Shown: in pieces, positions 1 to 17,017 of the stretch | Position numbering within the stretch: position 1 is the first letter of the stretch | How the letters are laid out: the number at the start of each line of letters is the position of its first letter | From: Elusimicrobiota bacterium | GTDB lineage: Bacteria; Elusimicrobiota; Elusimicrobia; 2-02-FULL-39-32 | DNA length: 54,628 bases | Reading direction: 5' to 3' | Assembly: GCA_021730935.1 (NCBI GenBank) | Contig: JAKFYJ010000038.1 | Coordinates: 1-54,628 of the forward strand | Notes under the pieces: generated by a model | Told to the model about the DNA's origin: nothing | Seen by the model: only the letters and a program-made list of their open reading frames with translations | Databases searched by the model: none | Made by a program: the position numbers and the translations under genes

Positions 1-323
1 TCATCGAAGGATTTGAGGGCGTTTCTGCGGGCTTCAATCAGGGGAATCAGGTTTTCCCATTTGGGGTTGGCGCCGGCGTTCAAAAGCCAGGGCTCGTCTG
101 TTTCCCGGAGACATTCTTCGATGAATTTCATGAGGCTCCGCCGGTTTCCATCTTTGTGATAGCTTGCGATGAAGGAGTCGAGGGCTTCGTCGTATTTTTT
201 TTCATAAAAAAGCTTCCGCCCCTGGGCATAGGACGCCCCGGAATCCTGTTCGGACGAAACTTCCGCCTTGCTTGACGCGGGAAACGCGAGCAAGAGAAGA
301 GAGCAAATAAGCAATGAATGCAT
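1..323 (-). CDS. Exported TPR-like protein, partial (runs off the window edge)
   Basis: The frame is open from the window edge to an ATG at 321-323, giving about 107 N-terminal residues. It begins with a signal peptide (MHSLLICSLLLLAFPASSKA) and continues with a TPR-like helix pair containing YAQGRKLFYEKKYDEALDSF. This matches the neighbouring 359-976 product (YSRGRQLFYEKKYEEALYTF), followed in both by a similar EECL segment, so the two are tandem paralogues. It is probably the last or a separately transcribed member of the repeat-protein/CsgG-like operon upstream. A -10 box TATAAT at 334-339 lies about 10 nt before the ATG and there is no Shine-Dalgarno sequence, so its mRNA may be leaderless. 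The function is unknown; a periplasmic accessory role in assembly or export is inference from context. Confidence 0.7.
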   Translation of the reverse strand, partial: MHSLLICSLLLLAFPASSKAEVSSEQDSGASYAQGRKLFYEKKYDEALDSFIASYHKDGNRRSLMKFIEECLRETDEPWLLNAGANPKWENLIPLIEARRNALKSFD

Positions 324-333
324 GAAGGCGCAT

Positions 334-362
334 ATTATACTCAATTCCGACGGTTATTTCAT
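334..362 (-). promoter_or_regulatory. Promoter for the 1-323 gene
   Basis: On the minus strand a perfect -10 (TATAAT, 334-339) is preceded at 17 bp by ATGAAA (357-362), a weak -35. The expected transcription start is only about 5 nt before the ATG at 323. The promoter lies in the 35-nt gap after the 359-976 gene, so the partial gene can be transcribed independently of the operon. Confidence 0.45.
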
Positions 363-976
363 TTGACTTCATCATCTTCAACCGTGATTTTTGCGGTGGA
401 GTCCAAAGTGATTTCGCGGCTCAAGCCCACGACTTTCGCGAGGCTGAGGTTCGCATCCACCTGGGCGATGACGATGCCGGCCACGGGTCTCTGGTGTCCG
501 TCAAGAATCACGCCGCTCATGCCCACCTGCATGCCGCCGCCGCTGCCGAGGTTGATGATGACTTTGTCTGCCCGTCCGCCGATTTTGTCGATCTGCATGA
601 CCTGGGCCGCGACATGCTTGGTTTTGGAGTCCTCGCCGTCGTTCAGCGGGACTTCTTTGCTCGGCGCGGGTCTCTGTTCGGGCGCCACTTTGAGTTTTCC
701 AGGGGCTCCGGAGCGTCTGCGCGTTTCCAGGATGGTCATGAGCGTGTCGGGCGGCTCGTTCATGCGGTGAAGGCACTCTTCCATATAGTTGAGCAGGTGG
801 CGGTTGCTTCCGTCCTGGATATACGCCTCGAGGAAGGTATAGAGAGCTTCTTCATATTTCTTCTCATAAAAGAGCTGGCGGCCTCGGCTATAGGGTTTGA
901 GCATGCCGGCGTCCGAGGCGAAGAGGGGCGCCGCCAGAAACGATGCCGCGATGAGTCCAAGAATTATTTTTTTCAT
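359..976 (-). CDS. Exported TPR-like protein with C-terminal beta-rich domain
   Basis: The 205-residue product has a signal peptide (residues 1-20, MKKIILGLIAASFLAAPLFA) and a TPR-like helix pair at about 28-75. A charged, proline-containing linker follows. A C-terminal beta-rich domain (about 130-205) contains INLGSGGGMQVGMSGVI, a pattern seen in periplasmic modules of FlgT C-terminal type. The ATG has a good Shine-Dalgarno (AAGGAG, 7 nt) and overlaps the end of the CsgG-like lipoprotein gene by 4 bp, so translation is coupled. The N-terminal half is paralogous to the partial gene at 1-323, which does not show the C-terminal domain within the window. It is probably a periplasmic or outer-membrane-associated accessory factor of the export system; the exact role is not known. 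Confidence 0.8.
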   Translation of the reverse strand: MKKIILGLIAASFLAAPLFASDAGMLKPYSRGRQLFYEKKYEEALYTFLEAYIQDGSNRHLLNYMEECLHRMNEPPDTLMTILETRRRSGAPGKLKVAPEQRPAPSKEVPLNDGEDSKTKHVAAQVMQIDKIGGRADKVIINLGSGGGMQVGMSGVILDGHQRPVAGIVIAQVDANLSLAKVVGLSREITLDSTAKITVEDDEVK

Positions 977-2100
977 GATTTTCTCCTTCCGCTGTTTTCA
1001 AGCTGGTGTCTTTTTGCGACCTGTTCCGGGGTGACGGGGATGTTCACATACACGCTCGTGAATGTGTCCAGATCGATCTGTGAAGATTTGGGGTCGAACT
1101 TCAGGTTGATTTCCGAGAGCGCCCGTTTGGTTTCGTCGTCCCACTTTCCGGTGACTTTGGTTTTATAGCCATAGAGAAAAAGCCATTCCTGCACATTGGC
1201 GAGCGCTTCCCTGGGGCTCAGACAGCGGAAATATTCCGAGATCTGGTTCAGGACCGCGGGATCCGGTTTTGCGTCGGGCCCGAGGAGTTTCCAATAGGGC
1301 AGGCGGAGGTGTTTGCCGACCATCTGGATCATGGAAAGTTCCACGAGGAGGCGGACCGCGGCGTGTCTGCCCTGAACGCGTTTCATGCTTCCTTTGAGAC
1401 CGAAAGTCTGGCCGAAGAGCCCGATGGCGAGTTCCTTTTCATTCATGCCTTTGCGGACTTCCATGGTGTTGACCACATTCATTTTGGGGATGCCTGTCAT
1501 GGTTTCCAGGTCAAGCAAATTGAAGTCCAGGGTGATGCGGGAAAGTCCGAACTTTTTGCCGCCGGAAGCGTTGAAGTTCACGCCTTTCGTCGGGAAATTG
1601 TCGGAGAGTCCGGGGAATTCGGCCTGGCCGCTGAGATCAATGTTTTTGCCTTGAGTCACAAGGCCTCTGTCAAACTCCGTGATGCCGCCGGAAAGGATGG
1701 CGTCCGGGATCACTTTGCTGAAAGATTCGGGGAAATATCCGGTGCCCGCCGTGTTCTGCATGAAAGCGGGGTCATAAGGAATGAACACCACACGGCCTCC
1801 GATGGAGTTAAGAACGCTCTTCATCATCTCCGTCACATCGCGGGGGATTTCCGCGCCGCTGGCGAGCGAGCTCCCGGTGTTGTCTCCGACGGGGGTGCAC
1901 TGGATCTTGAGCGGGGGAGCGCCATAAATTTCCGTCATCATGCCCAGGTCTTCAAGGGCTTGCGTATAGGTGGTGATGTTGGACATGGGCCGGGTTTCTT
2001 CGAGCACGATGTCGGCTCTCCGGGGATCCAGGGTCGCGCAGGCGCTGATCAGGCCTGAGAGGATCAGGATCGAAATTTTATAAATTTTCATGGCGCTCAT
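973..2100 (-). CDS. CsgG/HfaB-like outer-membrane lipoprotein with peptidoglycan-binding-like tail
   Basis: The product has 375 residues. A lipoprotein signal ends in L-I-S-A-C (Cys about 21). The core (about 45-260) has the CsgG-family layout: a strand leading to a 'G(D)NTGSSLASG' turn, a helix (EMMKSVLNSIGGRVVFIPYD) and a later LDFNLLDLETMTGI strand, the counterpart of the 'L-x-D-x-x-T-G' strand of CsgG proteins. Residues about 305-345 (LFLYGYKTKVTGKWDDETK) resemble a PG_binding_1 repeat. CsgG-type proteins form outer-membrane export pores for curli, and HfaB does so for Caulobacter holdfast anchors. Its place directly after genes for exported repeat proteins supports that role. The similarity is remote, so the family call is moderate. 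A second ATG (2091) is a possible alternative start. Confidence 0.6.
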   Translation of the reverse strand: MSAMKIYKISILILSGLISACATLDPRRADIVLEETRPMSNITTYTQALEDLGMMTEIYGAPPLKIQCTPVGDNTGSSLASGAEIPRDVTEMMKSVLNSIGGRVVFIPYDPAFMQNTAGTGYFPESFSKVIPDAILSGGITEFDRGLVTQGKNIDLSGQAEFPGLSDNFPTKGVNFNASGGKKFGLSRITLDFNLLDLETMTGIPKMNVVNTMEVRKGMNEKELAIGLFGQTFGLKGSMKRVQGRHAAVRLLVELSMIQMVGKHLRLPYWKLLGPDAKPDPAVLNQISEYFRCLSPREALANVQEWLFLYGYKTKVTGKWDDETKRALSEINLKFDPKSSQIDLDTFTSVYVNIPVTPEQVAKRHQLENSGRRKS

Positions 2101-2107
2101 TTCTCCT

Positions 2108-2416
2108 TTATTTTCCGGGGTTCACAATGTTGATGACATTGTTGACCTTGCTTCCGGGCTCGATCACGATGCTGTTTTCGTTGTTGTCTTCTCCGGAAAT
2201 ATTGATCTTGTCGTCTTTGGTTCCGTTGGCGACGCTGAGTTTCGCTTCGTTGAGGGCTTTGAGAACGTTATATTTGATGTTGAGGTCTTTGTCGCCCAGC
2301 ACGCAGTTGGCTTCGATCGGGTCTTCGCTCGCATCCCAGATGTTGTCTTTCATGTCGTCGGCATGAACCGCGGTTAAACTCATTCCGATCACTGCGAGGC
2401 ACATTAAAATTTTCAT
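2108..2416 (-). CDS. Small exported protein of the repeat-protein operon
   Basis: The 102-residue product has a signal peptide (MKILMCLAVIGMSLTAVHA). The mature part is Asp/Asn/Ile-rich and ends NSIVIEPGSKVNNVINIVN. The segment ENSIVIEPG resembles the C-terminal KNSVVIK of the 360-residue repeat protein, so it may share its fold or export signal. The Shine-Dalgarno is good (AAGGAG, 8 nt) and the CsgG-like gene starts 7 bp downstream. I do not recognise a family. A minor or nucleating subunit, comparable in position to CsgB or HfaA, is a guess from context. Confidence 0.75.
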   Translation of the reverse strand: MKILMCLAVIGMSLTAVHADDMKDNIWDASEDPIEANCVLGDKDLNIKYNVLKALNEAKLSVANGTKDDKINISGEDNNENSIVIEPGSKVNNVINIVNPGK

Positions 2417-2486
2417 GGTTCATTCTCCTTTTGGGTTTTGGCCATGGGTCCCGAGGACGGGAACCCATGGCCGTTTCATTCTTTGA

Positions 2487-2987
2487 TTATTCGCCTTTGA
2501 TGGTCGCCATGTTCGCTTGGGAATCGTCTCCGACGGCGACGTTGGCGGATTCTGTGACAAAAGCGCTGTTGCTGATGGTTCCATCCGCGCGGGTGTTTTT
2601 CAAGTCAATGGAGCCCATGGCGGCTGAAGAATTTTTGCCCACGGCAACGTTGGCGACTCTGTGGAGGATTGCCTCGTTGCTCACGGTTCCGTTGACCTTG
2701 GATCCGCTCATCGAGATTGAACCCATCGTTGCCGAAGATCCGTCTCCGACGGCGACGTTGGCGGATTCATTGACGGTGAGCATGTTGCTGATGGTTCCTT
2801 TGTCTCCGACATTGGTGTTTTTCAGGCGGATGGACCCGAGGGTTGCTTTTGATCCTTTTCCGACCGCGACGTTGGCCGTCCTGTTGACATCGACGATGTT
2901 GCTCACATTGCCTTTGATCTTTGAGTCTGCGAAGGCCATGGAACCGCTCATTAACAACACTGCGACGAGGCTGATGCTTTTTTTCAT
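2487..2987 (-). CDS. Exported 36-residue-repeat protein (short form)
   Basis: The 166-residue product is a signal peptide (residues 1-20) followed almost entirely by four tandem repeats of about 36 residues, each centred on S/R-A-N-V-A-V-G-x-x-S and followed by A-x-M-G-S-I-x-L-K-N and a G-T-[IV]-S-N turn. The regularity, the small and hydroxylated residues and the lack of Cys point to a stacked beta-structure (beta-solenoid or amyloid-like). The same repeat builds the upstream 360-residue protein. The repeat is not curlin-type (no regular Ser/Gln/Asn curlin spacing). It is probably a secreted structural subunit handled by the CsgG-like lipoprotein encoded downstream. Shine-Dalgarno AAGGAG lies 8 nt before the ATG. 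Confidence 0.8.
   Translation of the reverse strand: MKKSISLVAVLLMSGSMAFADSKIKGNVSNIVDVNRTANVAVGKGSKATLGSIRLKNTNVGDKGTISNMLTVNESANVAVGDGSSATMGSISMSGSKVNGTVSNEAILHRVANVAVGKNSSAAMGSIDLKNTRADGTISNSAFVTESANVAVGDDSQANMATIKGE
2490..2915 (-). repeat. Four tandem 36-codon (108-bp) coding repeats
   Basis: Residues 25-166 of the short repeat protein form four units. Two internal units are exactly 36 residues, one carries a small insertion (NTNVGD) and the last is truncated. Each contains ANVAVG at the same phase. Confidence 0.85.
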
Positions 2988-3015
2988 TTTAGTTTCTCCT
3001 TTATTTTATTGCTTC

Positions 3016-4098
3016 TTATTTGATAACCACTGAATTTTTGTTCGATGTCTTTCCGCCGAGAGCGATGTTGGTGTTGAAAGGGCACCAGGACATGAAGGGG
3101 ACCTTGCGGCTGTTGATGACGATGCCCGAGACCGACGCGTTGAAGGCTCCGCCGCCTGCTCCCGCGTTTCGGATCACGACAGAACCCATGTTGGCCTGGG
3201 CGCCGTTTCCGACCGCGAGGTTGGTGGCGGTCACGCCGGAAACGAAATTGATGATGGTCCCGTTGTATCGGCTGTTCTCGAGGCTCACGGAAGCCATGTT
3301 TGCTTTGGAATTGTTTCCAACCGCGAGGTTCGCAAGGACTCCGCTTGCCGCGATGTTGGCGATGGCTCCGTTCATCCGGCTGTTGTTCAGGTCGACGGAA
3401 GTCATGTTCGCGGTTGTTCCTCTTCCGACCGCCAGATTCGCCGCCGCTCCCGCAAACCCCGCATTGATCGCCGCTCCGTTCAGGGTGCTGTTTCTCAGGT
3501 TAAGGGAAGATTGGTTGGCGGTCGCGTGATCCCCGATGGCCGCGTTCACTGCGGCTCCGGCGCCCATCACATTGACGAAAACGCCTCTGGCTTTGCTTCC
3601 TTCAAGGTTGACCGAAGCCTGGTTTGCGCGAGCGTCCCGCCCCACGCCGAGGTTGACCGCGGCATAAGCTCCAAGGAGATTTGCGAAAGCTCCGATGCCC
3701 TGGCTGTTTTCCATATTAATGGAAGCCTGGTTCGCGCGGACATTTTCACCGACTGCGGCGTTGGCGAGAGCCATTCCAGCGCCGAGGTTGATCAAAGCGC
3801 CGCCCGCAACGCTGTTTTTGAGCCGCGTGCTGACCTGATTCGCTGTGGTTTGGTTGCCGACCGCAATGTTTCCCATGAACTTCGCTCCTGAAACATTGAC
3901 CGCCGTGCCCCAAAGCGCGCTGTTCTTGAGGTGGATCGCGTTCATGTTGGCGTTGGCGTGGTTCCCGATCGCCGCGTTCACCACATTGCTCTTGACCGCG
4001 GGGTTCACGAGGGTGCCGTGAATCTCAGATTCCGCAAATGCCAGGGTGGCCAGCATGGAGGTGATGATCGCTAAGAGGAACAGTTCAAAATGTTTCAT
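3016..4098 (-). CDS. Exported 36-residue-repeat protein (long form), candidate fibre or adhesin subunit
   Basis: The 360-residue product has a signal peptide (residues 1-22, ending LAFA). Eight consecutive repeats of exactly 36 residues (27-314) and a diverged ninth with a short insertion containing a single Cys (MSWCPF) follow. The repeat pattern is roughly G-[TA]-x-x-N, then A-x-N-[LA]-[AG]-[VI]-G-[ND], then A-N-[QM]-x-S-[VI]-x-[LM]-x-N-S. This is expected for a beta-solenoid with about two coils per repeat. The gene is the first in the minus-strand operon, behind an extended -10 promoter and AAGGAG 7 nt from the ATG. HfaD- or curlin-like surface roles are suggested by the linked CsgG-like exporter, but no sequence match to those proteins is claimed. 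Asn ladders and absence of charge in the core favour self-assembly (inference). Confidence 0.8.
   Translation of the reverse strand: MKHFELFLLAIITSMLATLAFAESEIHGTLVNPAVKSNVVNAAIGNHANANMNAIHLKNSALWGTAVNVSGAKFMGNIAVGNQTTANQVSTRLKNSVAGGALINLGAGMALANAAVGENVRANQASINMENSQGIGAFANLLGAYAAVNLGVGRDARANQASVNLEGSKARGVFVNVMGAGAAVNAAIGDHATANQSSLNLRNSTLNGAAINAGFAGAAANLAVGRGTTANMTSVDLNNSRMNGAIANIAASGVLANLAVGNNSKANMASVSLENSRYNGTIINFVSGVTATNLAVGNGAQANMGSVVIRNAGAGGGAFNASVSGIVINSRKVPFMSWCPFNTNIALGGKTSNKNSVVIK
3157..4020 (-). repeat. Eight tandem 36-codon (108-bp) coding repeats
   Basis: Residues 27-314 divide into eight units of exactly 36 residues with no indels; units 6-8 begin NGA or NGT and carry NLAVG at the same position. 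The DNA is diverged between units, so selection acts on the protein period rather than reflecting recent duplication. Confidence 0.85.
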
Positions 4099-4130
4099 AT
4101 CAATCTCCTTTAATGTTTGTTTCTGGTTAA

Positions 4131-4139
4131 ATCATAACA
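4131..4139 (-). promoter_or_regulatory. Extended -10 promoter of the repeat-protein/CsgG-like operon
   Basis: On the minus strand TGTTATGAT gives TATGAT (4131-4136) with an extended-10 TG. There is no good -35. The ATG of the first gene lies about 33 nt downstream. Confidence 0.45.
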
Positions 4140-4191
4140 CCCGGGCGGAAAACCCATATACCACATTTTTCGCGCCTGGGCAGACAAATTT

Positions 4192-4303: not shown

Positions 4304-6250
4304 ATGAAAGAGCTCTTCAGTTTTTTGGGTTTTCACCTTTCTTTCGGCGCGTCGGACTCCGAGGAATTGAGAAAAGCCCATGAGGAAGTCCGCGACAAAG
4401 AAGCCTTTTTGCGGGACATCATCAGCAACCTGCCGGTGGCGGTGTTCTGCAAGGACGCTCAGAACGGATATCGCTTCATCCTCTGGAACGAGATGAGCGA
4501 GAAGATGTTCGGGTTGACCCGCGAGCAGATCCTGGGAAAAAATGACTATGAGTTTTTCCCGAAAGATCAGGCTGATTATTTCCGCAGGATGGACGAAAAA
4601 GTGATGAGCCAAAACTCCGTCGTTGATATCCCCGAAGAGCCGATCGATTCCAAAAGCCTGGGGAAAATCCTCCTCCACACCCTCAAAGTCCCTCTCCGTG
4701 ACGTCGAAGGCCGGCCCAAATATCTTCTCGGGATCAGCGAGAACATTACGGAGCGGAAAAAAGTGGAGCAGGTGAAAAAAGAATTCATCTCCATCGTCAG
4801 CCACGAACTCCGGACGCCCTTGACCTCCATCCGCGGCGCTCTCGGGCTCATCAAGGGCGGAGCGGCCGGCGCTCTGCCGGGCCAGGCCCACGAGCTTGTG
4901 GAGATCGCTCACCGGAACAGCGAACGCCTTGTCCTCCTCATCAACGACATTCTCGATATCGAAAAAATTGAGGCCGGCAAGATGGATTTCAAAATCAAGC
5001 CTGCGCAGCTGGGGCCGATCATCGAGCAGTGTGTTGAAAATAACCTCGCATATGCCGACCAGTATAAAGTGAAATTTGTTTATGATCCTGCGGCGCAGGA
5101 CTGGAAAATAGACATGGATTCGGACCGGCTGATGCAGGTCCTCACCAACCTGCTTTCAAACGCCGCGAAATTTTCTCCCGAGGGAGGATCGGTGGATGTG
5201 GCCATAAAAAAGAATGGAGCCAAAATACGCGTCTCCGTCACAGACCACGGCAACGGCATTCCGGAACAGTTCCGGGAAAAGATATTCCAAAAATTCTCCC
5301 AGGCCGATTCCAGCGACAACCGCCAGAAACAGGGGACGGGCCTGGGCCTGAGCATCTCCAAAGTGATCGTGGAAAAAATGGGCGGCGAAATCGGCTTCAC
5401 GACGGAAACGGGCAGGGGAACGACCTTCTTCTTCGAGTTCCCCGAATGGCGGGACATCAAACTCAAAAAAATGGTGGCCATCCCGGGCAAACACCGTCCC
5501 CGCATCCTGGTCTGCGAGGACGATCTCGATGTCGCGGGCTTGATCAGCGAAATCCTCAAGGACGCGGGACTGGACTGCGATTTGGCCCACACGGCCAGAC
5601 AGGCGAGAGAATTTTTGCGCATCAAGCGTTATAACGCCATGACCCTGGACCTCAATCTCCCGGACCTCAACGGAAATGATTTTCTGTCCGAACTCCGCTC
5701 CAACCGCCAGATGCGCTCGGTGCCTGTCGTGATCGTTTCTTCGCAAACGGACGCGGACATCAATCCTCCCAGATCAGAAAGCGGAATGTTTGGGGTTGTG
5801 AGCTCCGTTGAGAAACCCATCGATCATGATCAGTTTTTGGTGGCCATCGAGCAGGCGGTCAAATTGAGCCTTGAAGGCAAGGGGCGCATCCTCCACATTG
5901 AGGATGAGTCCGATGTCACGAGCGTGACCTCCATGATCCTTCAGGACATGGGGGAAATCGTGACGGCCGCGACCTGCAAAGACGCTCGCGAAAAAATTCA
6001 AAATGAAACCTTTGATCTGGTGATCCTGGACCTTCAGATGCCGGACGGTTCAGGGCTGGACCTTCTCCCCATCCTCAAACAGCAGGGCAAAAAGCCGGTG
6101 CCGATCATCGTTCTCACCGCCCTCATTCCGCCGGAAGATTTGTCCAGGAAAGTGGACGCGGTGCTCCTCAAGTCCAAAACCTCGAATGTTGAAATCATCA
6201 ACACCATTCATTCTCTTCTGATTAAAAGCAAGGAGGACGCGAAAACATGA
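4304..6250 (+). CDS. Soluble hybrid histidine kinase (PAS-HisKA-HATPase-REC-REC)
   Basis: The 648-residue product has no membrane segment or signal peptide. Domains in order: PAS (about 36-152), HisKA with phospho-accepting His167 in SHELRTPL, HATPase (N box NLLSNAAKF at 282-290, G boxes DHGNGIP and GTGLGLS), REC1 (about 399-520, Asp449) and REC2 (about 527-642, Asp576). It should autophosphorylate and pass phosphate intramolecularly or to the Hpt and receiver proteins encoded next. It heads a string of genes joined by ATGA overlaps. Both receivers keep the acidic pair and phospho-Asp; REC2 reads LLKSK rather than the usual K-P. The signal is probably cytoplasmic, sensed by the PAS domain, with unknown ligand. 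Confidence 0.93.
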   Translation: MKELFSFLGFHLSFGASDSEELRKAHEEVRDKEAFLRDIISNLPVAVFCKDAQNGYRFILWNEMSEKMFGLTREQILGKNDYEFFPKDQADYFRRMDEKVMSQNSVVDIPEEPIDSKSLGKILLHTLKVPLRDVEGRPKYLLGISENITERKKVEQVKKEFISIVSHELRTPLTSIRGALGLIKGGAAGALPGQAHELVEIAHRNSERLVLLINDILDIEKIEAGKMDFKIKPAQLGPIIEQCVENNLAYADQYKVKFVYDPAAQDWKIDMDSDRLMQVLTNLLSNAAKFSPEGGSVDVAIKKNGAKIRVSVTDHGNGIPEQFREKIFQKFSQADSSDNRQKQGTGLGLSISKVIVEKMGGEIGFTTETGRGTTFFFEFPEWRDIKLKKMVAIPGKHRPRILVCEDDLDVAGLISEILKDAGLDCDLAHTARQAREFLRIKRYNAMTLDLNLPDLNGNDFLSELRSNRQMRSVPVVIVSSQTDADINPPRSESGMFGVVSSVEKPIDHDQFLVAIEQAVKLSLEGKGRILHIEDESDVTSVTSMILQDMGEIVTAATCKDAREKIQNETFDLVILDLQMPDGSGLDLLPILKQQGKKPVPIIVLTALIPPEDLSRKVDAVLLKSKTSNVEIINTIHSLLIKSKEDAKT

Positions 6251-6630
6251 GCCAGGAACCTTTGACCCGCCTTCTCCTCGTGGAAGACGACACGGACATC
6301 CAAAAAATCGCCAAACTCTCTCTGGAAATGAACGGATATTCCCTGAAAGTCTGCGGGTCCGGCGTGGACGCGCTTCGGGATGTCCCCGCATTTCAGCCTC
6401 AGCTGATCCTGATGGACGTCATGATGCCCGGCATGGATGGTCCTTCGACCTTCAAGGCGCTCAAGGCCATTCCTCAGGCGGCATCCATTCCGATCATTTT
6501 TATGACGGCCAAAGTTCAGAAGGAGGAAGTGGAAAAATACAGGGAATTGGGCGCCGTGGGCGTCATCCAAAAACCCTTTGACCCCATGAACTTGTCAGCC
6601 TTGATTATGGAAATATGGAGGAAGATATAA
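6247..6630 (+). CDS. Single-domain response regulator (CheY-like)
   Basis: A 127-residue receiver with no output domain. It has the acidic pair EDD, the phospho-Asp in LILMDVMMPGMDG, the Thr of IIFMTAK and the K-P of VIQKPFDP. Its ATG overlaps the kinase stop codon (ATGA), so the two are translationally coupled. It is a probable phosphate shuttle or sink between the hybrid kinase and the Hpt-containing protein that follows 4 nt downstream. Confidence 0.93.
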   Translation: MSQEPLTRLLLVEDDTDIQKIAKLSLEMNGYSLKVCGSGVDALRDVPAFQPQLILMDVMMPGMDGPSTFKALKAIPQAASIPIIFMTAKVQKEEVEKYRELGAVGVIQKPFDPMNLSALIMEIWRKI

Positions 6631-6634
6631 TCCT

Positions 6635-7768
6635 GTGACGGAGAGGGAAGAGCTTCAGCGCGAATATCTTGAGGGGGTCCGGGCGAGGGTTCGCACTCTG
6701 GAGTCTTTGAAAAAAGACATCGCCTCAAAGTTTCCGGAAGCGTTTGAAGAGGTTCGGCGGATCAGCCACAAGATCTCCGGGTCCGCCGGCGTCTTTGGAT
6801 TCCCGGAACTCTCCTCCCTGGCCGGCGCCGTGGAAAAATCTTCCGACGAAGAATTGCCGGGAAAACTGGAACAGATGTTGAAATCCCTCAAGGCCGCGAG
6901 CGAAGCTCCCGCAGTCCAATCCAGTCCCGAGCGCGACATGCTGAAAGCGAAGTTCGACGCCTTTCTTCTGACGGCGCTCCAGGCGGGGAAACCTTTTTCC
7001 GTGTGTTTCGTCCGTTATGAAATCCTGAGTCCGTCAATGAGCACCCAGGAGAATCTCGACGGCCTCGCGAATTATTTCAGGGAAGCTCTCCCGGCATTCC
7101 TGACCAAGAGCGATGTTGTCGGCCGTCTGGACGCGTCAAGTTTTCTGGCCCTCCTTCCTTATGCAGATCTGGCGCGGGCCGGAACCTTGATCGACAAACT
7201 GATCGACGATGTGATGAAAACCAGATTCGAGTCCGCAGGCGGGGCGTTTTTGGAAGTGAAGATTTCAGCGGGGCTCTGCGAAGTGAAAAAAGACATGACT
7301 TTTTCCCAGGCCATTGACCAGTCCTTTTCTCAGTCGGAACGCGCCGCCCGGTTGGGGGGCAACTGCGTGATGGGCTCTCACATTGCGGAAGGGTCTCAAA
7401 AATCCGTCAACATCCTCGTGGCCGACGACGATGAGATGATCACCTCTTTCGTTCAGCGCAGGCTGGACCAGCGCAAATATAAAATACTTACGGCCCCCGG
7501 AGGCGTCCAGGCCATGGACATCGCCAGCCGCGAGGAGATCGGCCTTTTTGTCCTCGACATCCAGATGCCCGGCATGAACGGTCTGGAAATCCTGGAGCGG
7601 ATACGCAAAATGCCCAAACATGCCAAGACGCCCGTTTTGATGCTCACCGCCCTCGGAAATGAAACAGACATTGAGCGCGCGTTTGCGGCCGGCGCCAACG
7701 ATTATCTCGTGAAACCCTTTTCTCCCGTCGAACTCCAGGCCAGGATCCGCCGTCTCATCGGCTCATGA
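6635..7768 (+). CDS. Hpt-degenerate GGDEF-receiver fusion protein
   Basis: The 377-residue product starts at GTG 6635. Residues about 1-88 form an Hpt helical bundle with His45 in SHKISGSAGVFGF. Residues about 105-248 have the fold pattern of a GGDEF domain, but the signature is replaced by RLDASSF (164-170), so cyclase activity is unlikely. Residues about 257-375 are a receiver with DDDE, phospho-Asp308 (FVLDIQMPGMNG) and VKPF. The combination makes it a phosphotransfer hub that can take phosphate on His45 and hold it on its own receiver. The degenerate GGDEF may bind GTP or a partner. It lies in the overlapping signalling operon and overlaps the HEAT protein gene by 4 bp. Confidence 0.85.
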   Translation: MTEREELQREYLEGVRARVRTLESLKKDIASKFPEAFEEVRRISHKISGSAGVFGFPELSSLAGAVEKSSDEELPGKLEQMLKSLKAASEAPAVQSSPERDMLKAKFDAFLLTALQAGKPFSVCFVRYEILSPSMSTQENLDGLANYFREALPAFLTKSDVVGRLDASSFLALLPYADLARAGTLIDKLIDDVMKTRFESAGGAFLEVKISAGLCEVKKDMTFSQAIDQSFSQSERAARLGGNCVMGSHIAEGSQKSVNILVADDDEMITSFVQRRLDQRKYKILTAPGGVQAMDIASREEIGLFVLDIQMPGMNGLEILERIRKMPKHAKTPVLMLTALGNETDIERAFAAGANDYLVKPFSPVELQARIRRLIGS

Positions 7769-8784
7769 TCGCGCTCGTCTTTGTGAGCGTGTTCCTTTTG
7801 GTCCTGGCTCTCGGGTTCATGGTCCTGGCGATCCTGCTCTGGCTTCAAAATGAGTTGGAATCCCGAAAACTCTCCGGCCTAAAATCCAAATGGCAGAACC
7901 CTCTTTTCGACTGGATCTCTGACAGCAAACGCAAGTCTGCAGTTCCCGTGCTCGTGAGCCCGGACCAGGTCCCCTATTTCGTGGATTACCTTCTGGAACT
8001 GACCCAAAGGTTTCACGGAAGCGCCATGGACGCTCTGCGGCTCGCCGCTGAACCTCACCTTAAAATTGTGGCCCAATCCGTCTCGTCCCGGGACCCCTAT
8101 ACCCGCGCGTGGGCCGTCCGGGTCCTTGGAATTTTCGGCCTTCCGAGATATGTGAACGCGCTCCGCAAAGGCCTGCGCGATTCCTCTCCCGTTATCCGCA
8201 TGATTTCTTTCCGCAGCCTGATTTTATTCGGCTATCTCGAATATTTGGACGAAATGGTTTCGAGCCTCTCGGGATTCTCCGAATGGAACCAGAATTTTCT
8301 GGCATCGCTTCTCTCCACGCTTGGGCCGCAGGTGGCCGACAATCTCCGTCAACATTTCGTGTCCCCTCAAACGCCCGTCCAGGTGAAATCCGTCCTGGCC
8401 GTGGCACTCCGCCAGCTCAATGACGCCAAGTCCGGGCCTCTCGCCGAGAAGGTTCTGCAAAAAACTTCCGACAGGGATTTGCTGATCTCCTGCCTGAGGT
8501 TGCTTCGTTCCTCCGGGACTTCGGAACAGTCCGACGCCGTTCGGCGGCTCTGCCTTTCAAACGATTTTGCGGTGCGCGCCCAGGCGATCAGGACCCTTGG
8601 AAGTTTGGGAAATTCAAACGACATCCCGCTCCTCAAACGCGCGATGGACGAAGGCAACAGCTGGCTCTCCTCTCACGCGGCATTTTCTCTCAAACAGATC
8701 GGCGCGCTCGGCGTGCTCGAAGCCGCGGCGTCCTCTCCCGGCCCGCAGAAAATTTTCGCCCTGCAGGCGCTTGCGGAAAAATGA
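7765..8784 (+). CDS. Membrane-anchored HEAT-repeat protein
   Basis: The 339-residue product has one N-terminal transmembrane segment (about 3-27, FVSVFLLVLALGFMVLAILLWL) followed by alpha-helical HEAT/PBS-lyase-type repeats. Repeat motifs include YTRAWAVRVLGIFG, SPVIRMISFRSLILFG, DFAVRAQAIRTLGSLG and SWLSSHAAFSLKQIG. Such repeats are protein-interaction scaffolds. Its ATG and its stop both overlap neighbours by 4 bp, and it sits directly before the GT2 synthase, so it is likely a partner or regulatory platform for that synthase (inference). Confidence 0.85.
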   Translation: MIALVFVSVFLLVLALGFMVLAILLWLQNELESRKLSGLKSKWQNPLFDWISDSKRKSAVPVLVSPDQVPYFVDYLLELTQRFHGSAMDALRLAAEPHLKIVAQSVSSRDPYTRAWAVRVLGIFGLPRYVNALRKGLRDSSPVIRMISFRSLILFGYLEYLDEMVSSLSGFSEWNQNFLASLLSTLGPQVADNLRQHFVSPQTPVQVKSVLAVALRQLNDAKSGPLAEKVLQKTSDRDLLISCLRLLRSSGTSEQSDAVRRLCLSNDFAVRAQAIRTLGSLGNSNDIPLLKRAMDEGNSWLSSHAAFSLKQIGALGVLEAAASSPGPQKIFALQALAEK

Positions 8785-10202
8785 TGTCCCGCTATTTTTT
8801 CATCGCCATCGGCTGGTACAACAACCTCGTCCTGGCTTATTTCACGGGGCTGAATCTTTCATATTTTTTTATGACGGTGCTGGCCATGTGGAAAATCCGC
8901 GACTATGCCCGCCTCCGGAAAACCATGGTGCTTGAAGAGCTCATCGGCCATGTGGTCTGGCCGCCCGTCACGCTCCTTGCCCCGGCTTATAACGAAGAGC
9001 AGACCTGCACGGACTCCATTCAGTCTCTCCTCACTCTGATCTATCCCGAATATGAAATCCTCTTTATCAACGACGGCTCAAAGGACAAAACCGTGGAACG
9101 CATGGTGACGTTCTTCGATATGAAAGAAACCATCCGCGCCCCCACCGCGCAGATCCCCTCCTCGGAGGTGAAAAAAATATACCGGAGCCGCAGATATCCC
9201 AACCTCTGGCTCATCGACAAGGCCAACGGGGGAAAAGCCGACGCCTTGAACTGCGGCATCAACTTTTGCCGGACCCCTCTTTTCAGCGCCATGGACGCAG
9301 ACAGCCTCCTTGAACGCGAAGCCCTGAAACGCATTGTCCACCCTTTCGTCGAAGACACCACCACCGTTTCCGTGGGCGGCATCATCCGCATCGCCAACGG
9401 CTGCAAGATTGAATCGGGCATTGTCACCGACGTCAAACTCCCCCAAAACTGGCTCCCCAAATTTCAGGTCCTGGAATATCTCCGCGCGTTCCTGGCCGGC
9501 CGGCTCGGGTGGTCTTTTCTGGACTCGGTACTCATCGTCTCCGGCGCGTTCGGCATTTTCAAGCGTTCCTCGGTGGTGAGCGTGGGAGGCTACCGCACCG
9601 ACACCGTGGGGGAAGACATGGAACTCATCATGCGTCTCCACCGCCACTGCCGCGATAAAAAAATTCCTTATCGCATCCTCTTCGTTCCCGATCCCGTCGC
9701 CTGGACGGAATGCCCCGAATCCATCACTGTGCTCAGCAAACAGAGAGACCGCTGGCAGAGGGGGCTCATCGAATCGCTCCTGAAAAACATCTCCATGCTC
9801 TTCAATCCGCGTTATGGCCGCATCGGACTTTTTGCCTATCCTTACTTTTTTTTCTTTGAGATGCTCGGCCCCGTCATCGAGCTTTTCGGATATGTTTCCT
9901 TCGCCGTCTGCTGGCATTACGGGCGGGTCGACATGCGGTTCACGATCGCGTTCCTGATGGTGGCCTTCGTTTTGGGCGTGGCGCTTTCGATCGCCGCCGT
10001 CAGCCTGGAAGAACTGTCGTTCCGCAGATACCCTCGTTTTAAAGACCTCCTCCAGCTTTTCGCCCTCGCCGTCATCGAAAACTTCGGATATCGCCAGCTC
10101 AACATTTTCTGGCGCGTCAAAGGCGTTTTCACCTATCTCTCCGGTTCCCACAGCTGGGGAAAAATGGAGCACAAAGGGTTCCACAAAGCTCACTCGGCTT
10201 GA
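8781..10202 (+). CDS. Membrane glycosyltransferase family 2, processive polysaccharide synthase type
   Basis: The 473-residue product has the full signature of processive inverting GT2 enzymes of PgaC/IcaA or BcsA type. It has a nucleotide-sugar fold (NDGSKD at 97-102), NGGKADALN (149-157), the DxD motif MDADS (172-174), the acceptor motif GED (277-279) and QRDRW (321-325). A hydrophobic N-terminus and several C-terminal membrane helices (about 345-440) form the pore. It would polymerise and export a sugar polymer, perhaps a GlcNAc-type matrix; the substrate cannot be read from sequence. No PilZ domain is seen. Co-transcription with kinases, the HEAT protein, a CsgG-family lipoprotein and a diguanylate cyclase suggests c-di-GMP- or phosphorelay-controlled matrix production. 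Confidence 0.9.
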   Translation: MMSRYFFIAIGWYNNLVLAYFTGLNLSYFFMTVLAMWKIRDYARLRKTMVLEELIGHVVWPPVTLLAPAYNEEQTCTDSIQSLLTLIYPEYEILFINDGSKDKTVERMVTFFDMKETIRAPTAQIPSSEVKKIYRSRRYPNLWLIDKANGGKADALNCGINFCRTPLFSAMDADSLLEREALKRIVHPFVEDTTTVSVGGIIRIANGCKIESGIVTDVKLPQNWLPKFQVLEYLRAFLAGRLGWSFLDSVLIVSGAFGIFKRSSVVSVGGYRTDTVGEDMELIMRLHRHCRDKKIPYRILFVPDPVAWTECPESITVLSKQRDRWQRGLIESLLKNISMLFNPRYGRIGLFAYPYFFFFEMLGPVIELFGYVSFAVCWHYGRVDMRFTIAFLMVAFVLGVALSIAAVSLEELSFRRYPRFKDLLQLFALAVIENFGYRQLNIFWRVKGVFTYLSGSHSWGKMEHKGFHKAHSA

Positions 10203-10251
10203 AAAATTCCCCGTTTCATGGTATTTTCTTGTGAAATAATGAATAATTATT

Positions 10252-10259
10252 ATTGTTAT
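10252..10259 (+). promoter_or_regulatory. AT-rich motif ATTGTTAT, site 1
   Basis: The motif lies in an AT-only tract just before, and overlapping, the ATG of the histidine kinase at 10258. The same core occurs upstream of the genes at 12140, 15209 and 26805 (minus). Confidence 0.35.
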
Positions 10260-12009
10260 GAATACTGTAAATAATATCATTACCGAAATCGAGTCCCGTT
10301 CTCAGCGGAACGCCCGGCGGTTCGCGTGGACATTGATCGCTTCCGTGTCCGGGGCTTTGGGAGTCCTCAAGCTTTTCGTTTACGTCCTTCCTTTGAAGTA
10401 TCCCGAATATACCCATGAGAAGATCCTCAGCCTGACTTTTCAGTTTTCCGTTTTTCTGTCTGCCGCCGTTTCGTGGCTCATCTGGCGGTTTTACAGGCGG
10501 GTGTCGAAATCATATGTCAATTCAACCGTCAAGCAGATCGTCATGGAAGAGGCGCTCAGGAACAAGGAACAGCTCGTGCGGCAGATCACCGAAAACATTG
10601 ACGAGGTTTTTTGGATGACGAGCGTCGAGAAAAACAGGATGGAATATGTCAGTTCGGCTTATGAGAAAATTTGGGGGCGTCCCTGCCATGAACTTTATCA
10701 GGACCCGACATCCTGGGCCGACGCCATCCATCCTGAAGACCGTGACCGCGTGCTGAAAGCCGCTGTTGAAAAGCAGGTCCGGGGAGATTACGATGAAGTT
10801 TATCGGATCAACCGGCCCGACGGGTTCATCCGCTGGATCCGCGACCGCGCTTATCCCATTAAAAACAGCAAGGGAGAAGTGACGCAGGTCACGGGCATCG
10901 CCAGAGACATCACCCGCCAGGTCAACACCGATTATCAGCTCAAGCTCTGGATGAAAGCCCTTGAAACCTCAGCCACTGGAAAGATCATCACCGACATTGC
11001 TGGAAAAATCCTCTGGGTGAACCCGGCCCTTTGCTCCATGACCGGATATGAGGAAGAAGAGCTGATCGGCAAGAGTGTGAAGATTCTGAAATCGGGACAG
11101 CACGATAAATTCTTCTATAGTCAGATGTGGCAGACCGTGCTCTCCGGCAGGGTGTGGCGGGGGGAAATTATCAACCGAAGAAAAGACGGACGTCTTTATC
11201 CTGAGGAGATGACCATCACTCCCGTGAGGGCGGAGGACCGGGAAATCACTCACTTCATCGCGGTCAAGCAGGATATCTCCGGACGAAAGAAGGACGAAGC
11301 GGAAAAACACGACCTCCTCCTCAAACTTTTTCAGACGGAAAAGATGGCATCCGTGGGACAGCTGACGAGCGGAGTGGCCCATGAGCTCAACAACCCCCTC
11401 ACCGCGGTGGTCGGGTTGGTGGATCTGCTCCTTGAAGACGCCAAGGATCCGGAGGTCAAGGCGGACCTCAAAACCATCAAGGAACAGTCGGTCCGGTGCA
11501 GCAAGATCGTCCTCAGCCTGCTCCAGTTCGCGCGCCAGCATAAACCCCAAAAGATGCCCGTGGACGTCAACGACATCCTTGAAAAATCTTTTTCTCTTGT
11601 GAGTTATACGGCCAAAACGTCTTCGATTTCCCTCCATAAGGAACTCGATCCAGGTCTTCCTCATATTGTCGCGGATCCCAATCAGCTTCAGCAGGTTTTC
11701 CTGAATCTCATCACGAACGCCAGCCATGCGGTCCAGGAATCTCCAAGCCCGGATTTGACGCTCAAGACAGAAAAGGTCGGGGACAAGGTACTCATTCATG
11801 TGTCGGACAATGGGGTCGGCATCCCCCCGGAATCCCTGAGAAAGATTTTTGACCCATTCTATACGACAAAAGAACCCGGCAAGGGCACGGGTTTGGGGCT
11901 TTCCATCTGCCACAGCATCGTCCAGGAGCATTCCGGAGACATTCAAGTCAGGAGTGAGCCTGGCAAGGGGACCACTTTTACGGTTGAACTCCCGATTCAA
12001 AAAAGCTAA
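10258..12009 (+). CDS. Membrane sensor histidine kinase (2 TM-PAS-PAS-HisKA-HATPase)
   Basis: The 583-residue product has two N-terminal membrane helices (about 23-46 and 59-79) with only a short loop between them. PAS1 (about 104-222) and PAS2 (about 229-343) follow, each ending in a PAC-like strand. HisKA has His375 in SGVAHELNNPLTAVVG, and an NtrB-like HATPase has NLITNASHAV, DNGVGIPP and GTGLGLS. There is no receiver, so it must signal to a separate protein; the HTH-receiver regulator 130 bp downstream is the obvious candidate. No Shine-Dalgarno precedes the ATG, and the AT-rich motif overlaps it. Either the mRNA is nearly leaderless or the true start differs. Confidence 0.9.
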   Translation: MNTVNNIITEIESRSQRNARRFAWTLIASVSGALGVLKLFVYVLPLKYPEYTHEKILSLTFQFSVFLSAAVSWLIWRFYRRVSKSYVNSTVKQIVMEEALRNKEQLVRQITENIDEVFWMTSVEKNRMEYVSSAYEKIWGRPCHELYQDPTSWADAIHPEDRDRVLKAAVEKQVRGDYDEVYRINRPDGFIRWIRDRAYPIKNSKGEVTQVTGIARDITRQVNTDYQLKLWMKALETSATGKIITDIAGKILWVNPALCSMTGYEEEELIGKSVKILKSGQHDKFFYSQMWQTVLSGRVWRGEIINRRKDGRLYPEEMTITPVRAEDREITHFIAVKQDISGRKKDEAEKHDLLLKLFQTEKMASVGQLTSGVAHELNNPLTAVVGLVDLLLEDAKDPEVKADLKTIKEQSVRCSKIVLSLLQFARQHKPQKMPVDVNDILEKSFSLVSYTAKTSSISLHKELDPGLPHIVADPNQLQQVFLNLITNASHAVQESPSPDLTLKTEKVGDKVLIHVSDNGVGIPPESLRKIFDPFYTTKEPGKGTGLGLSICHSIVQEHSGDIQVRSEPGKGTTFTVELPIQKS

Positions 12010-12765: not shown

Positions 12766-13155
12766 ATGTTTGACAGCAAAAAGACGAGAGTGGTCGTGGT
12801 GGACGACGACGCGGAAGTTTTGAGGACTCTGAAGAAGATCCTCCTCCGCAGGCGTTATGAAATTTTTGCTTTTGATTCACCCATCGCCGCGCTGGAGCAC
12901 CTCCGCAAGGAAAAAGCCGACCTCATCTTGTCCGACATGAAAATGCCCCAGATGGACGGACTCCAGTTCCTTATCCAGGCAAAGACGCTTCAGCCGACAA
13001 CTCCCTTCATCCTCATCACGGGATATGCGACCATCGACACCGCCGTGTCAGCCATCCAGTGGGGAGCGTTCGACTATCTCCGAAAACCTTTTGAGGTGAA
13101 GAAAATATATGAAGTGATCGACCTCGCATTGAAACAGGAAGGTTCAGCGTCATGA
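12766..13155 (+). CDS. Response regulator, receiver only (NtrC-type receiver)
   Basis: A 129-residue receiver. It has VVVDDDAEV, phospho-Asp in LILSDMKMPQMDG, the Thr of ILITGYA and RKPF. The segment ITGYATIDTAVSAIQWGAFDYL is NtrC-like, but no AAA+ or HTH output domain follows. I chose ATG 12766 (GGGGGGA 5 nt upstream) over an in-frame TTG at 12745. The stop overlaps the start of the CsgG-family gene. It is a probable phosphorelay intermediate. Confidence 0.88.
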   Translation: MFDSKKTRVVVVDDDAEVLRTLKKILLRRRYEIFAFDSPIAALEHLRKEKADLILSDMKMPQMDGLQFLIQAKTLQPTTPFILITGYATIDTAVSAIQWGAFDYLRKPFEVKKIYEVIDLALKQEGSAS

Positions 13156-13895
13156 TGCCGGCCTGGATGCGGGAATCTTCTCTCCGGTGGTACCGCAAAA
13201 TGCCGATGGTAAAAGCACTTGGGCCTTATCAATGGATCATCCCTGCGGCACTTCATTATTCCACCCGTGCCATTTACGGGGTGTTCTTCGCCGCGATCGG
13301 GACTTCCGGATGCGCCGCCAAGCGGGCGCTCGTCCCTCAGGTCCCCCTTCATTTCCCAACGCACCGCATCGCCGTCCTGCCCTTTGATTCCCGCAATCCT
13401 TACATTTCAGGCGCCGCTCTGAGCGACTGTTTCGTGGTCCGCATTCTTCAGCAGATTCCGGGCCTCCAGGTGATAGAGAGGCGGGACCTCATGAAGATCC
13501 TTGAGGAGCAGAAGCTGACGCTTTCCGGGATCGTCCGTCCCGATAAATTCGGGAAGCTCGGCATGCTTTTGGGGGTGGACGCGATCCTGGTGGGCGCAGT
13601 GGAAACCCTGGAGGCCATCCACAGCGTGCGAGGCAGCATCGCCGTCACCCTCAAGCTGATTGAAGTTTCGACGGGGAAAATTCTTTGGGCCGACCGCCAG
13701 ACGATTTCCCATTCGTCGTGGTCTGCGGAAGACATTGAAGTGATCGCTTCCGTCCTGCTCGAAAAATCAGCCGAGAAGTCTGTCCGGAACATGGGGCGGG
13801 CAGAAATATCGTCCCGGTTCACGCCCCGGGACGCGGGTGCTGATCCGGAGTTCCTCAAAGAAGCCCGGCTCAGCGCTCCAAAGGAGTTTCAATGA
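13152..13895 (+). CDS. CsgG-family lipoprotein (curli assembly/transport-like)
   Basis: The 247-residue product has a long N-terminus with a hydrophobic stretch ending in TSGC (Cys about 54), a plausible though atypical lipobox; the true start may be an internal Met (16 or 19). From about 72 onwards it matches the CsgG family closely: RIAVLPFDS, a helix (SDCFVVRILQQIPGLQVIER), DLMKILEEQKL, LLGVDAILVGAV and LIEVSTGKILWA. Family members are outer-membrane lipoproteins; full-length CsgG forms a secretion pore, and shorter relatives often act in envelope assembly. It sits inside a run of receiver genes, overlapping both neighbours by 4 bp, which ties envelope assembly to the signalling cluster. 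It is the second CsgG-like gene in the window and closer to the family core than the one at 973-2100. Confidence 0.82.
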   Translation: MMPAWMRESSLRWYRKMPMVKALGPYQWIIPAALHYSTRAIYGVFFAAIGTSGCAAKRALVPQVPLHFPTHRIAVLPFDSRNPYISGAALSDCFVVRILQQIPGLQVIERRDLMKILEEQKLTLSGIVRPDKFGKLGMLLGVDAILVGAVETLEAIHSVRGSIAVTLKLIEVSTGKILWADRQTISHSSWSAEDIEVIASVLLEKSAEKSVRNMGRAEISSRFTPRDAGADPEFLKEARLSAPKEFQ

Positions 13896-15169: not shown

Positions 15170-15208
15170 TAATAATTTATAAACTGTCGAAGCACTTTGA
15201 GGTGCGAA

Positions 15209-16990
15209 ATGGATGTCGATACCAAGACTCTGACGGCGGTTCAGCTTCTCCTGGAATATCTCTCGGCTGAGGGAGTGAGTCACATCTTCGGGATCCCCGG
15301 CGGTCCCCTGATGCCTCTCTACGAAGCCATTTTCGACAGCCATAAAATCAAACCCATTATCACCAAGCATGAGGAAGGCGCGGCCTTCATGGCGGACGGA
15401 TACGCGCGCGTGAGCGGGCGGCTGGGCGTCTGCTGTTCCACCACAGGGCCCGGCGCCACCAACGCTCTCACCGGGATGGCTTGCGCTTATCGCGATTCCG
15501 TTCCTGTCCTCCTCCTTTCGGCTCAGGTGGCTCTGGCGGCTTTCGGGAAAGGGGCCGCACAGGAAAGTTCACCCCTCGGCATCGATATCGTCAGTCTCTA
15601 TAAATCCGTCACGAAGGGAAGCTTCATGCTTCCTTCCGCGGAAAAAACCTCAGATATTGTCCGGCATCTGCTTCGAGCCGCGCTCAGCGGGCGCCCCGGA
15701 CCTGTGCACTTGAGCATCCCGGCCGACATGTTCAAACGTCCTGTTTCTCCAGACCTTGTTCCGCCCTGCACATATCGGCCCCTGACAGAATGTTTCGACA
15801 GGCAATCCATCCGCAGGGCATCCAAAGTTCTGATCGAGTCCCGCCACCCGATCATCCTCGCGGGATATGGCGTTCATCTCGGACGCGCTCATAAGGAACT
15901 CATCGCGTTGTCGGAACGGCTGAAAATTCCCGTGGTCACGACGCCCAAGGGAAAGGGGGTGTTCCCGGAAAATCATGATCTTTCCCTCGGTGTTTTCGGC
16001 CTCGCCGGTTCGCCCCGAGCGGATCAGGCCATGTTTTCGCCGGAGACGGACGCGGTCCTGGCCATCGGAACCAGTTTTGGGGAAGCGTCCACTCACGCCT
16101 GGGATTTCCGCATCGCGCGGGGAAAAAAAGTGCTCCAGCTCGACATTGATCCGAGAGAGATCGGAAAAAATTATCCTGTGGACATTGGGCTCCCTGGGGA
16201 TGTGCGTCCGGTGCTGGAGGAACTGAATTATCAGGTCCAGAGGGATTTGTTGTTCGCACCCTTGAGTCCGGATGTGATGGGAATGAGGATGGCGAAGGTC
16301 CGGGCGGTCCGCGCGATGCATCGGCGCGTGATTGATCCCAGGAGCATGAGAGATCTTTCGGTGCCGCTCAAGCCTCAGAGGGTGATCTCTGAGTTGAGGC
16401 GCGCCATGCCGGAAACGGGCATCCTGTTTGTGGACATCGGAAATGTCATGGCCTGGGCGATCCATTATTTCAAAACAGCTTTGCCCGGAACCTTCTTCAT
16501 CAACATGGGTTTCGGCTCGATGGGACACGGCATGGCGGCGGCGATCGGAGGCAAGCTTGCCGCTCCGGACAGGGCGGTGGTTTCTCTCGTGGGGGACGCC
16601 GCTTTCGCCATGAACGGGATGGAAGTGCACACTGCGGTCGAGCACAATGTCCCCGTCGTGTGGGTGGTCATGAACAACGGGGGGCATGGGATGGTCCACA
16701 TGGGCGAAAGCATCCAGTTTAAAAAGAAATTCAACACGTCTCTCTTCAGCCGCCCTCTGGAGATCGCAAAAATTGCCGAATCCATGGGAGCGAGAGCTGT
16801 GAGGGTCGCTCATCCGGGAGAAACGGAATCCGCGGTCCGCGAAGCCATCCTGGCGAATGTCCCTTCCGTTGTGGAGGTCATGATCGACCGGGAATCCCGC
16901 CCGCCGAGCGCGATCCGCATCGAAACGCTGGAGAAATTTTTTAATCCGGAACAATCGAAAGGCATCAACCATGAACTGGGGGCGCGCTGA
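15209..16990 (+). CDS. Acetolactate-synthase-like ThDP-dependent enzyme
   Basis: The 593-residue product is full length for the family. The N-terminal pyrimidine-binding domain has IFGIPGGPLMPLYEA, the catalytic Glu in TKHEEGAAFMADGYAR and STTGPGATNALTG. A central domain (about 200-340) follows. The C-terminal PP-binding domain has the metal site GDAAFAMNGMEVHTA followed by MNNGG. Enzymes of this family form C-C bonds by decarboxylating 2-oxoacids (acetolactate, sulfoacetaldehyde, benzoin-type). No ilvN regulatory subunit or other branched-chain gene is nearby; methyltransferases follow, so a biosynthetic C-C ligation is more likely than valine synthesis (inference). I chose ATG 15209 (GAGGTG 4 nt upstream) over TTG 15197. 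Confidence 0.88.
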   Translation: MDVDTKTLTAVQLLLEYLSAEGVSHIFGIPGGPLMPLYEAIFDSHKIKPIITKHEEGAAFMADGYARVSGRLGVCCSTTGPGATNALTGMACAYRDSVPVLLLSAQVALAAFGKGAAQESSPLGIDIVSLYKSVTKGSFMLPSAEKTSDIVRHLLRAALSGRPGPVHLSIPADMFKRPVSPDLVPPCTYRPLTECFDRQSIRRASKVLIESRHPIILAGYGVHLGRAHKELIALSERLKIPVVTTPKGKGVFPENHDLSLGVFGLAGSPRADQAMFSPETDAVLAIGTSFGEASTHAWDFRIARGKKVLQLDIDPREIGKNYPVDIGLPGDVRPVLEELNYQVQRDLLFAPLSPDVMGMRMAKVRAVRAMHRRVIDPRSMRDLSVPLKPQRVISELRRAMPETGILFVDIGNVMAWAIHYFKTALPGTFFINMGFGSMGHGMAAAIGGKLAAPDRAVVSLVGDAAFAMNGMEVHTAVEHNVPVVWVVMNNGGHGMVHMGESIQFKKKFNTSLFSRPLEIAKIAESMGARAVRVAHPGETESAVREAILANVPSVVEVMIDRESRPPSAIRIETLEKFFNPEQSKGINHELGAR

Positions 16991-17017
16991 TCGGCCTTCG
17001 TCATAAAGGAAGTGAAA

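Follow-up and report, generated by a model that had tools for sequence, protein, structure and literature searches.

CsgG-type pores handle curli and, probably, holdfast anchors. The CsgG fold is also found in the rings formed by PelC and FlgT, which are not protein exporters. The Fap system of Pseudomonas, like the locus described here, encodes repeat-built exported subunits in a small operon, but its exit is the trimeric beta-barrel FapF and not a CsgG ring; no Pfam or NCBIfam match to Fap was found among the proteins of the window, by which we mean the whole stretch of Elusimicrobiota DNA analyzed here (54,628 nucleotides). The curlin repeat has a QxGxxN kernel and a spacing of about 22-24 residues (PMC3521004, PMC10192328). 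In curli the size of CsgG is independent of the size of CsgA, and secretion of the subunits is believed to take place in the unfolded state (PMC3521004); given this precedent, long repeat subunits could plausibly be exported through a CsgG-like pore.

At the start of the window lies an operon whose products probably form a dedicated CsgG-type system for export and assembly. Its pore protein is predicted to have the CsgG fold, its putative cargo is built from 36-residue repeats that are not curlin repeats, and the same gene cassette is present in other phyla. The literature, as far as it was covered, describes no CsgG system with such repeat cargo.

Operon layout and surroundings

The operon occupies positions 3-4098 of the minus strand, at the start of its contig (contig C13; assembly of 2.7 Mb in 96 contigs). 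The genes are transcribed in the order P0002, P0003, P0004, P0001, P0005 and P0006 (Table 1), with successive gaps of 28, 70 and 7 bases, a 4-base overlap between P0001 and P0005, and a last gap of about 35 bases. All six proteins have a signal peptide-like start, which in P0001 is a lipobox. The initial annotation had placed here, on this strand, two repeat proteins, a small protein, a lipoprotein and further exported proteins, tightly spaced and partly overlapping, and every one of these genes is present in that arrangement. It had also called these last proteins TPR-like: their export signals stand, and the TPR-likeness is weak, since P0005 matches only TPR_2 in Pfam at E 0.25. By eye, P0006 resembles a paralogue of the N-terminal half of P0005. 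A suspected resemblance of the C-terminal half of P0005 to the C-terminal domain of the CsgG protein that this genome also encodes found no support in BLAST. Promoter and terminator scans of the operon gave results no better than shuffles.

Table 1. Features of the window and of selected related loci. Positions refer to the window, except in the last five rows, where they refer to the named locus.
Feature	Position	Strand	Length	Description
P0002	4098-3016	minus	360 aa	Eight 36-residue units behind a signal peptide; conserved tail at the C-terminus, with the end GGKTSNKNSVVIK
P0003	2987-2487	minus	166 aa	Exported, short; about four units of the P0002 repeat family
P0004	2416-2108	minus	102 aa	Small, exported
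P0001	2100-973	minus	375 aa	Lipoprotein, lipobox LISAC; predicted CsgG fold at about residues 40-280, PG_binding_1-like helical C-terminal domain at about 281-350
P0005	976-359	minus	205 aa	Exported; weakly TPR-like N-terminal half, small C-terminal half
P0006	from 323 (or 344) down to 1	minus		Exported; incomplete at contig end
Divergent gene group	4304-12009	plus		Sensor kinase, response regulators, HEAT-like protein, family-2 glycosyltransferase, second kinase
Family-2 glycosyltransferase	8781-10202			About 4.7 kb from the operon
Second CsgG-family protein	13152-13895	plus		Unrelated to P0001; PF03783 over cut-off; response regulator directly after
Thiamine-diphosphate enzyme-like ORF	15197-16990			Adjoins the O-methyltransferase-like ORFs
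O-methyltransferase-like ORFs	17012-18091, 18075-19139, 22035-23093	plus		Seemingly paralogous; Pfam check for the first only
Giant exported ORF	45308-54424	plus	3038 aa	fn3 and Ig-like stretches, C-terminal FlgD_ig / CHU_C-like domain
Pore of L025	8834-10327			TPR repeats after the PG_binding-like region
Pore of L054	6709-8253			TPR repeats after the PG_binding-like region
Pore of L058	6768-8207			TPR repeats after the PG_binding-like region
Repeat protein of L047	10683-14001		at least 1106 aa	Very long; runs past the end of the stretch
Repeat protein of L021	5046-7718		890 aa	About 26 motif matches

The gene group running divergently from the operon possibly provides a regulatory or polysaccharide link to it. 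Further into the window, the gene for the second CsgG-family protein is kept in both congeners, and the stretch from about 15.0 to 27.7 kb, which holds the O-methyltransferase-like ORFs, is absent from one of them (G295) between two shared flanks. The giant ORF near the far end likely encodes a surface protein.

The predicted pore lipoprotein and its putative cargo

Taken as a single sequence, P0001 has no match to the CsgG Pfam family (PF03783) and finds nothing among solved structures; its best family is the NCBIfam HfaB model (E 0.0012; 18.1 bits, the curated cut-off being 300). Across the family of 17 pore proteins, HfaB weakly matches five relatives and the CsgG Pfam model weakly matches three members (best E 0.0016). 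An hhalign comparison of the P0001 family with a small CsgG alignment, one comparison only, gave a probability of 86.8 and an E-value of 4.3e-6, and paired the DxTG motif of CsgG with a DxTG motif of the P0001 family. The profile of the pore family found no CsgG match among the sequences of solved structures, so the link to CsgG is carried by the predicted fold and the hhalign result.

The AF2 model of P0001, built on the 17-sequence family alignment (pLDDT 75.5, pTM 0.69), contains long strands at residues 134-161, 173-197 and 203-228 that resemble the CsgG hairpins, with confidence falling below 50 at the hairpin tips (157-159, 176-179 and 232-242). All top Foldseek matches of the model are CsgG (best E 1.6e-10, 6l7a). 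With VIA-align it superposes on CsgG 7brm with Z 15.0 (206 residues, 5.8 A) and on membrane-bound CsgG 4uv3 with Z 14.4 (196 residues, 5.2 A), whereas FlgT, the fold ranked after CsgG, scores Z 10.2, with PelC and TolB also at about 10; the aligned length is 171-209 residues with CsgG versus 113-151 with PelC, FlgT and TolB. P0001 is thus predicted to have a CsgG fold with two beta-hairpins per protomer, and the CsgG likeness proposed in the initial annotation, marginal from the single sequence, is confirmed by the family-built model. The lipobox cysteine is invariant in 17/17 members and is never followed by Asp, a sequence pattern that lacks the inner-membrane retention residue and suggests an outer-membrane-type lipoprotein. 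From fold and gene order we infer that P0001 may form a ring-shaped outer-membrane channel that secretes the repeat proteins.

The C-terminal 90 residues of P0001 are helical in the model and weakly PG_binding_1-like. A peptidoglycan-binding-like tail had been proposed for this protein, and the proposal is weakly supported: PG_binding_1 matches 7 of the 17 pore relatives (best E 7e-4), while P0001 itself scores 14.7 bits, below the Pfam cut-off of 23. Most pore relatives end in a GxxLxxxEW-like motif, apart from the three that carry appended TPR repeats (Table 1), and this motif is absent from P0001.

It is unlikely that P0001 is instead a periplasmic or outer-membrane-anchored ring of the PelC or FlgT kind, without a protein channel, the repeat proteins being periplasmic or reaching the surface by another way out. 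Such a ring would fit the core fold common to PelC, FlgT and TolB, the hairpin tips, where the model is least certain, and a PG_binding_1-like tail suggestive of a wall-anchored role, yet CsgG scores well above all three and is matched over the whole of residues 40-280, the modeled strands are 25-28 residues long, and repeat proteins are the usual neighbors of the pore gene. Less likely again is a divergent holdfast-anchor (Hfa) system, in which an HfaB-like pore, HfaD-like repeats and an HfaA-like small protein would anchor polysaccharide. The presence of two cargo types and one pore does resemble HfaA/HfaD and HfaB (PMC6707917), HfaB is the best-matching family, and a family-2 glycosyltransferase gene lies nearby; set against this, the HfaB score is so low that P0001 would not be classed as HfaB, the CsgG Pfam matches are about as good, the cargo has no NCBIfam holdfast-protein match, and no holdfast-like gene was recognized in the relatives' loci. 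A CsgG-type exporter of the repeat proteins is the reading followed below.

P0002 contains eight units with an NxAVG-type motif at a spacing of exactly 36 residues, and P0003 has repeats of the same type, with one step of 38 residues. Identities at a lag of 36 residues number 119/302 positions in P0002 and 34/108 in P0003, values reached by 0/2000 shuffles of either protein, which rules out repetition by chance and establishes, for the putative cargo, the 36-residue repeats described in the initial annotation. Pairwise identity among the P0002 units is 28-56%, and the second-best lag in this protein is 9 residues, a sign of a possible sub-period of that length. Pfam and NCBIfam yielded no meaningful match for either P0002 or P0003. 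Across the repeat-protein relatives the 36-residue spacing is maintained in 91 intervals, and 108 distinct units yield the consensus NVA[IV]G....AN[ML]GS[VI].[ML].NS.V.G.[VI].N, in which N1, G5, A10, S20, G24 and N28 are conserved at 90-100%, the conservation of N1, G5, A10 and N28 being partly imposed by the search pattern. The long repeat proteins carry a conserved C-terminal tail (SNKNSVV), and the tail of P0002 recurs in L020, L045, L021 and L048. Among the very long family members, such as those of L047 and L021, some have a spacing of 35 instead of 36 residues.

The AF2 model of P0002, a structure prediction that the initial annotation had proposed for the repeat proteins, is a regular beta-solenoid (pLDDT 85.1, pTM 0.86). 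Foldseek of the repeat-protein model against solved structures found nothing significant (best E 0.25); VIA-align matched it to autotransporter-type beta-helices (Vag8, Z 18.5, rmsd 3.9, 247 residues), which we take as a general resemblance only. AF2 over-predicts beta-solenoids for near-perfect repeats (PMC11795689), a bias that the imperfect P0002 units lessen and do not remove, and for this reason we regard the predicted beta-solenoid fold of the cargo as likely. P0002 is probably the main cargo or fiber subunit, with P0003 as a candidate second cargo or subunit.

The small protein P0004 has a C-terminal NxNS[VI][VI] motif that resembles the end of P0002, and its relatives, encoded directly upstream of the pore gene in most loci, have an NxNSVV motif near the C-terminal end. 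Since this end motif is shared with the long repeat proteins, we propose that P0004 may act as a linker or nucleator.

The claim that the subunits are not curlin is supported: a Pfam scan admitting E-values as high as 1 found no Curlin_rpt match in P0002 or P0003, and CsgF is present in 0/14 cassette genomes, with a positive E. coli control. By these two features the cassette would not be classed as curli. CsgE had no Pfam match among the cassette proteins scanned. A true, highly diverged curli operon, which the CsgG fold and the N- and G-rich repeat cargo might bring to mind, is very improbable given the lack of Curlin_rpt matches, the lack of CsgF in the 14 genomes and a 36-residue unit that has neither the QxGxxN kernel nor the curlin spacing (PMC3521004, PMC10192328).

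Relatives, linkage and distribution

Searches with the single P0001 sequence came up empty in its own phylum (294 genomes) and in viral contigs; it was an alignment of the repeats that opened up the family. A search with this alignment, using one genome per species, identified seven loci in records labeled Nitrospirae, Deltaproteobacteria, Pseudomonadota, Proteobacteria and Magnetobacteriaceae. Four of the seven encode a P0001 relative, 39-56% identical, and the genomes of the remaining three also have one. A pore gene was present in 6/6 repeat-reached genomes searched whole, a count that leaves aside the genome of L020, which has the pore in the locus itself. Searches with an alignment of the lipoproteins found the pore in 6/345 genomes of the phylum of G305 (Nitrospirae) and 7/345 genomes of the phylum of G304 (Deltaproteobacteria); the results of a further search, of G303's phylum, overlap those of the second.

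Repeat protein(s), a P0004 relative and the pore occur together in ten loci besides the window (L020, L022, L023, L025, L045, L048, L049, L050, L053 and L054), and L055 encodes a P0004 relative plus the pore. Homologs of the repeat proteins are thus adjacent to CsgG-like genes in other phyla, as an export role had led the initial annotation to expect, and the cassette is real. Typically the repeat genes come first, then the gene for the small protein and then the pore gene, and in 10 loci the pore is followed by an LPP20-like protein (its match to Pfam LPP20, at E 2.7e-4, is below cut-off). A 110-aa exported protein (s110) follows the pore in 8 loci and a 100-aa membrane protein (s100) in 11; a DUF2807 protein is often found after the pore (6 loci), and some loci also have an HtrA-type protease. 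In the window, P0005 and P0006 stand in place of these genes, and no counterpart of P0005 was found in the other loci. The window version may be reduced or diverged, because it has no s110, LPP20-like or s100 gene, a lack to be read with the end of the contig soon after the pore, and its pore has no GxxLxxxEW-like motif.

Linkage free of the bias of the repeat search was assessed in the pore-found loci with intact flanks (L048, L049, L050 and L053-L058; n=9). Canonical repeats are present in 5/9 and a divergent repeat protein in 2/9. Even the most diverged pores, those of L056 and L057 (26 and 23% identical), occur with small repeat proteins whose units are spaced at 36 and 35 residues, which indicates that the association between repeats and pore spans the whole sampled pore family.

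The distribution is sporadic, with the cassette in 1/294 genomes of its own phylum alongside the low frequencies in the two other phyla. Among those 294 genomes and the 117 nearest genomes, it is found in the window genome only; with the repeat profile, no convincing match came up either in the rest of the phylum or in viral contigs, and a search of plasmids with P0002 found nothing. Contamination of the assembly is unlikely, the threonyl-tRNA synthetase on the same contig being 87% and 84% identical to those of two congeners. Genes at 12.8-14.8 kb are common to the congeners, and shared synteny begins near 12.8 kb. A native contig, synteny only from that point and a cassette restricted to the window genome make horizontal gain or scattered loss the likely origin; the genomes of the two congeners are 79% and 73% complete. 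In a phylogenetic tree the window pore protein is nearest to the Nitrospirota proteins, without firm support.

A candidate CsgG-type pathway and its comparison with known systems

Beyond a dedicated export system, we put forward, with slightly less than even confidence, a more specific model: a separate CsgG-type pathway, scattered over three or more phyla, in which non-curlin cargo of 36-residue repeats folds outside the cell into a beta-solenoid fiber or rod. In this model a small protein that bears the subunits' terminal motif would nucleate the fiber or rod, and a pore with a wall-facing tail would hold it. For the export system as such, the repeat proteins would cross the inner membrane by Sec, stay unfolded in the periplasm, traverse the outer membrane through the lipoprotein ring and take on their fold as beta-solenoid rods or fibers once outside. 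P0004 might anchor the rod to the pore as it grows, or else seed it, by analogy with CsgF and CsgB in curli. On the periplasmic side, the helical tail of the pore could hold the pore or hand over cargo, and P0005 and P0006, or elsewhere the LPP20-like protein, could do the same. The system is likely used for surface attachment or matrix formation.

If the model is correct, these proteins would constitute a third conserved class of CsgG cargo, which would suggest that repeat proteins with extracellular folding generally can leave by CsgG-type export. The family would then offer a natural test of what makes cargo acceptable to a CsgG pore, as well as further pore variants for use in nanopores, and it might also include secreted protein fibers of a new kind.

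Of the described systems, PelC, FlgT and the N-domain of TolB share with the pore protein its core alpha/beta fold, but match a shorter part of the P0001 model than CsgG does. The HfaABD system of Caulobacter resembles the cassette in having a CsgG-related pore and two kinds of surface cargo, and its HfaB profile weakly matches P0001; it differs in that the HfaB score of the cassette is far below the cut-off, the cargo lacks a holdfast match in NCBIfam and no holdfast-like genes were recognized in the loci of the relatives. Unlike curli, the cassette has no curlin repeats, no CsgF in the genomes searched and no CsgE in the Pfam scans of cassette proteins; its pore has an extra helical tail, and its repeat unit is 36 residues long, as opposed to 22-24. 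With curli it shares a lipoprotein predicted to have the CsgG fold, repeat-built exported cargo and a small exported putative helper encoded beside the pore.
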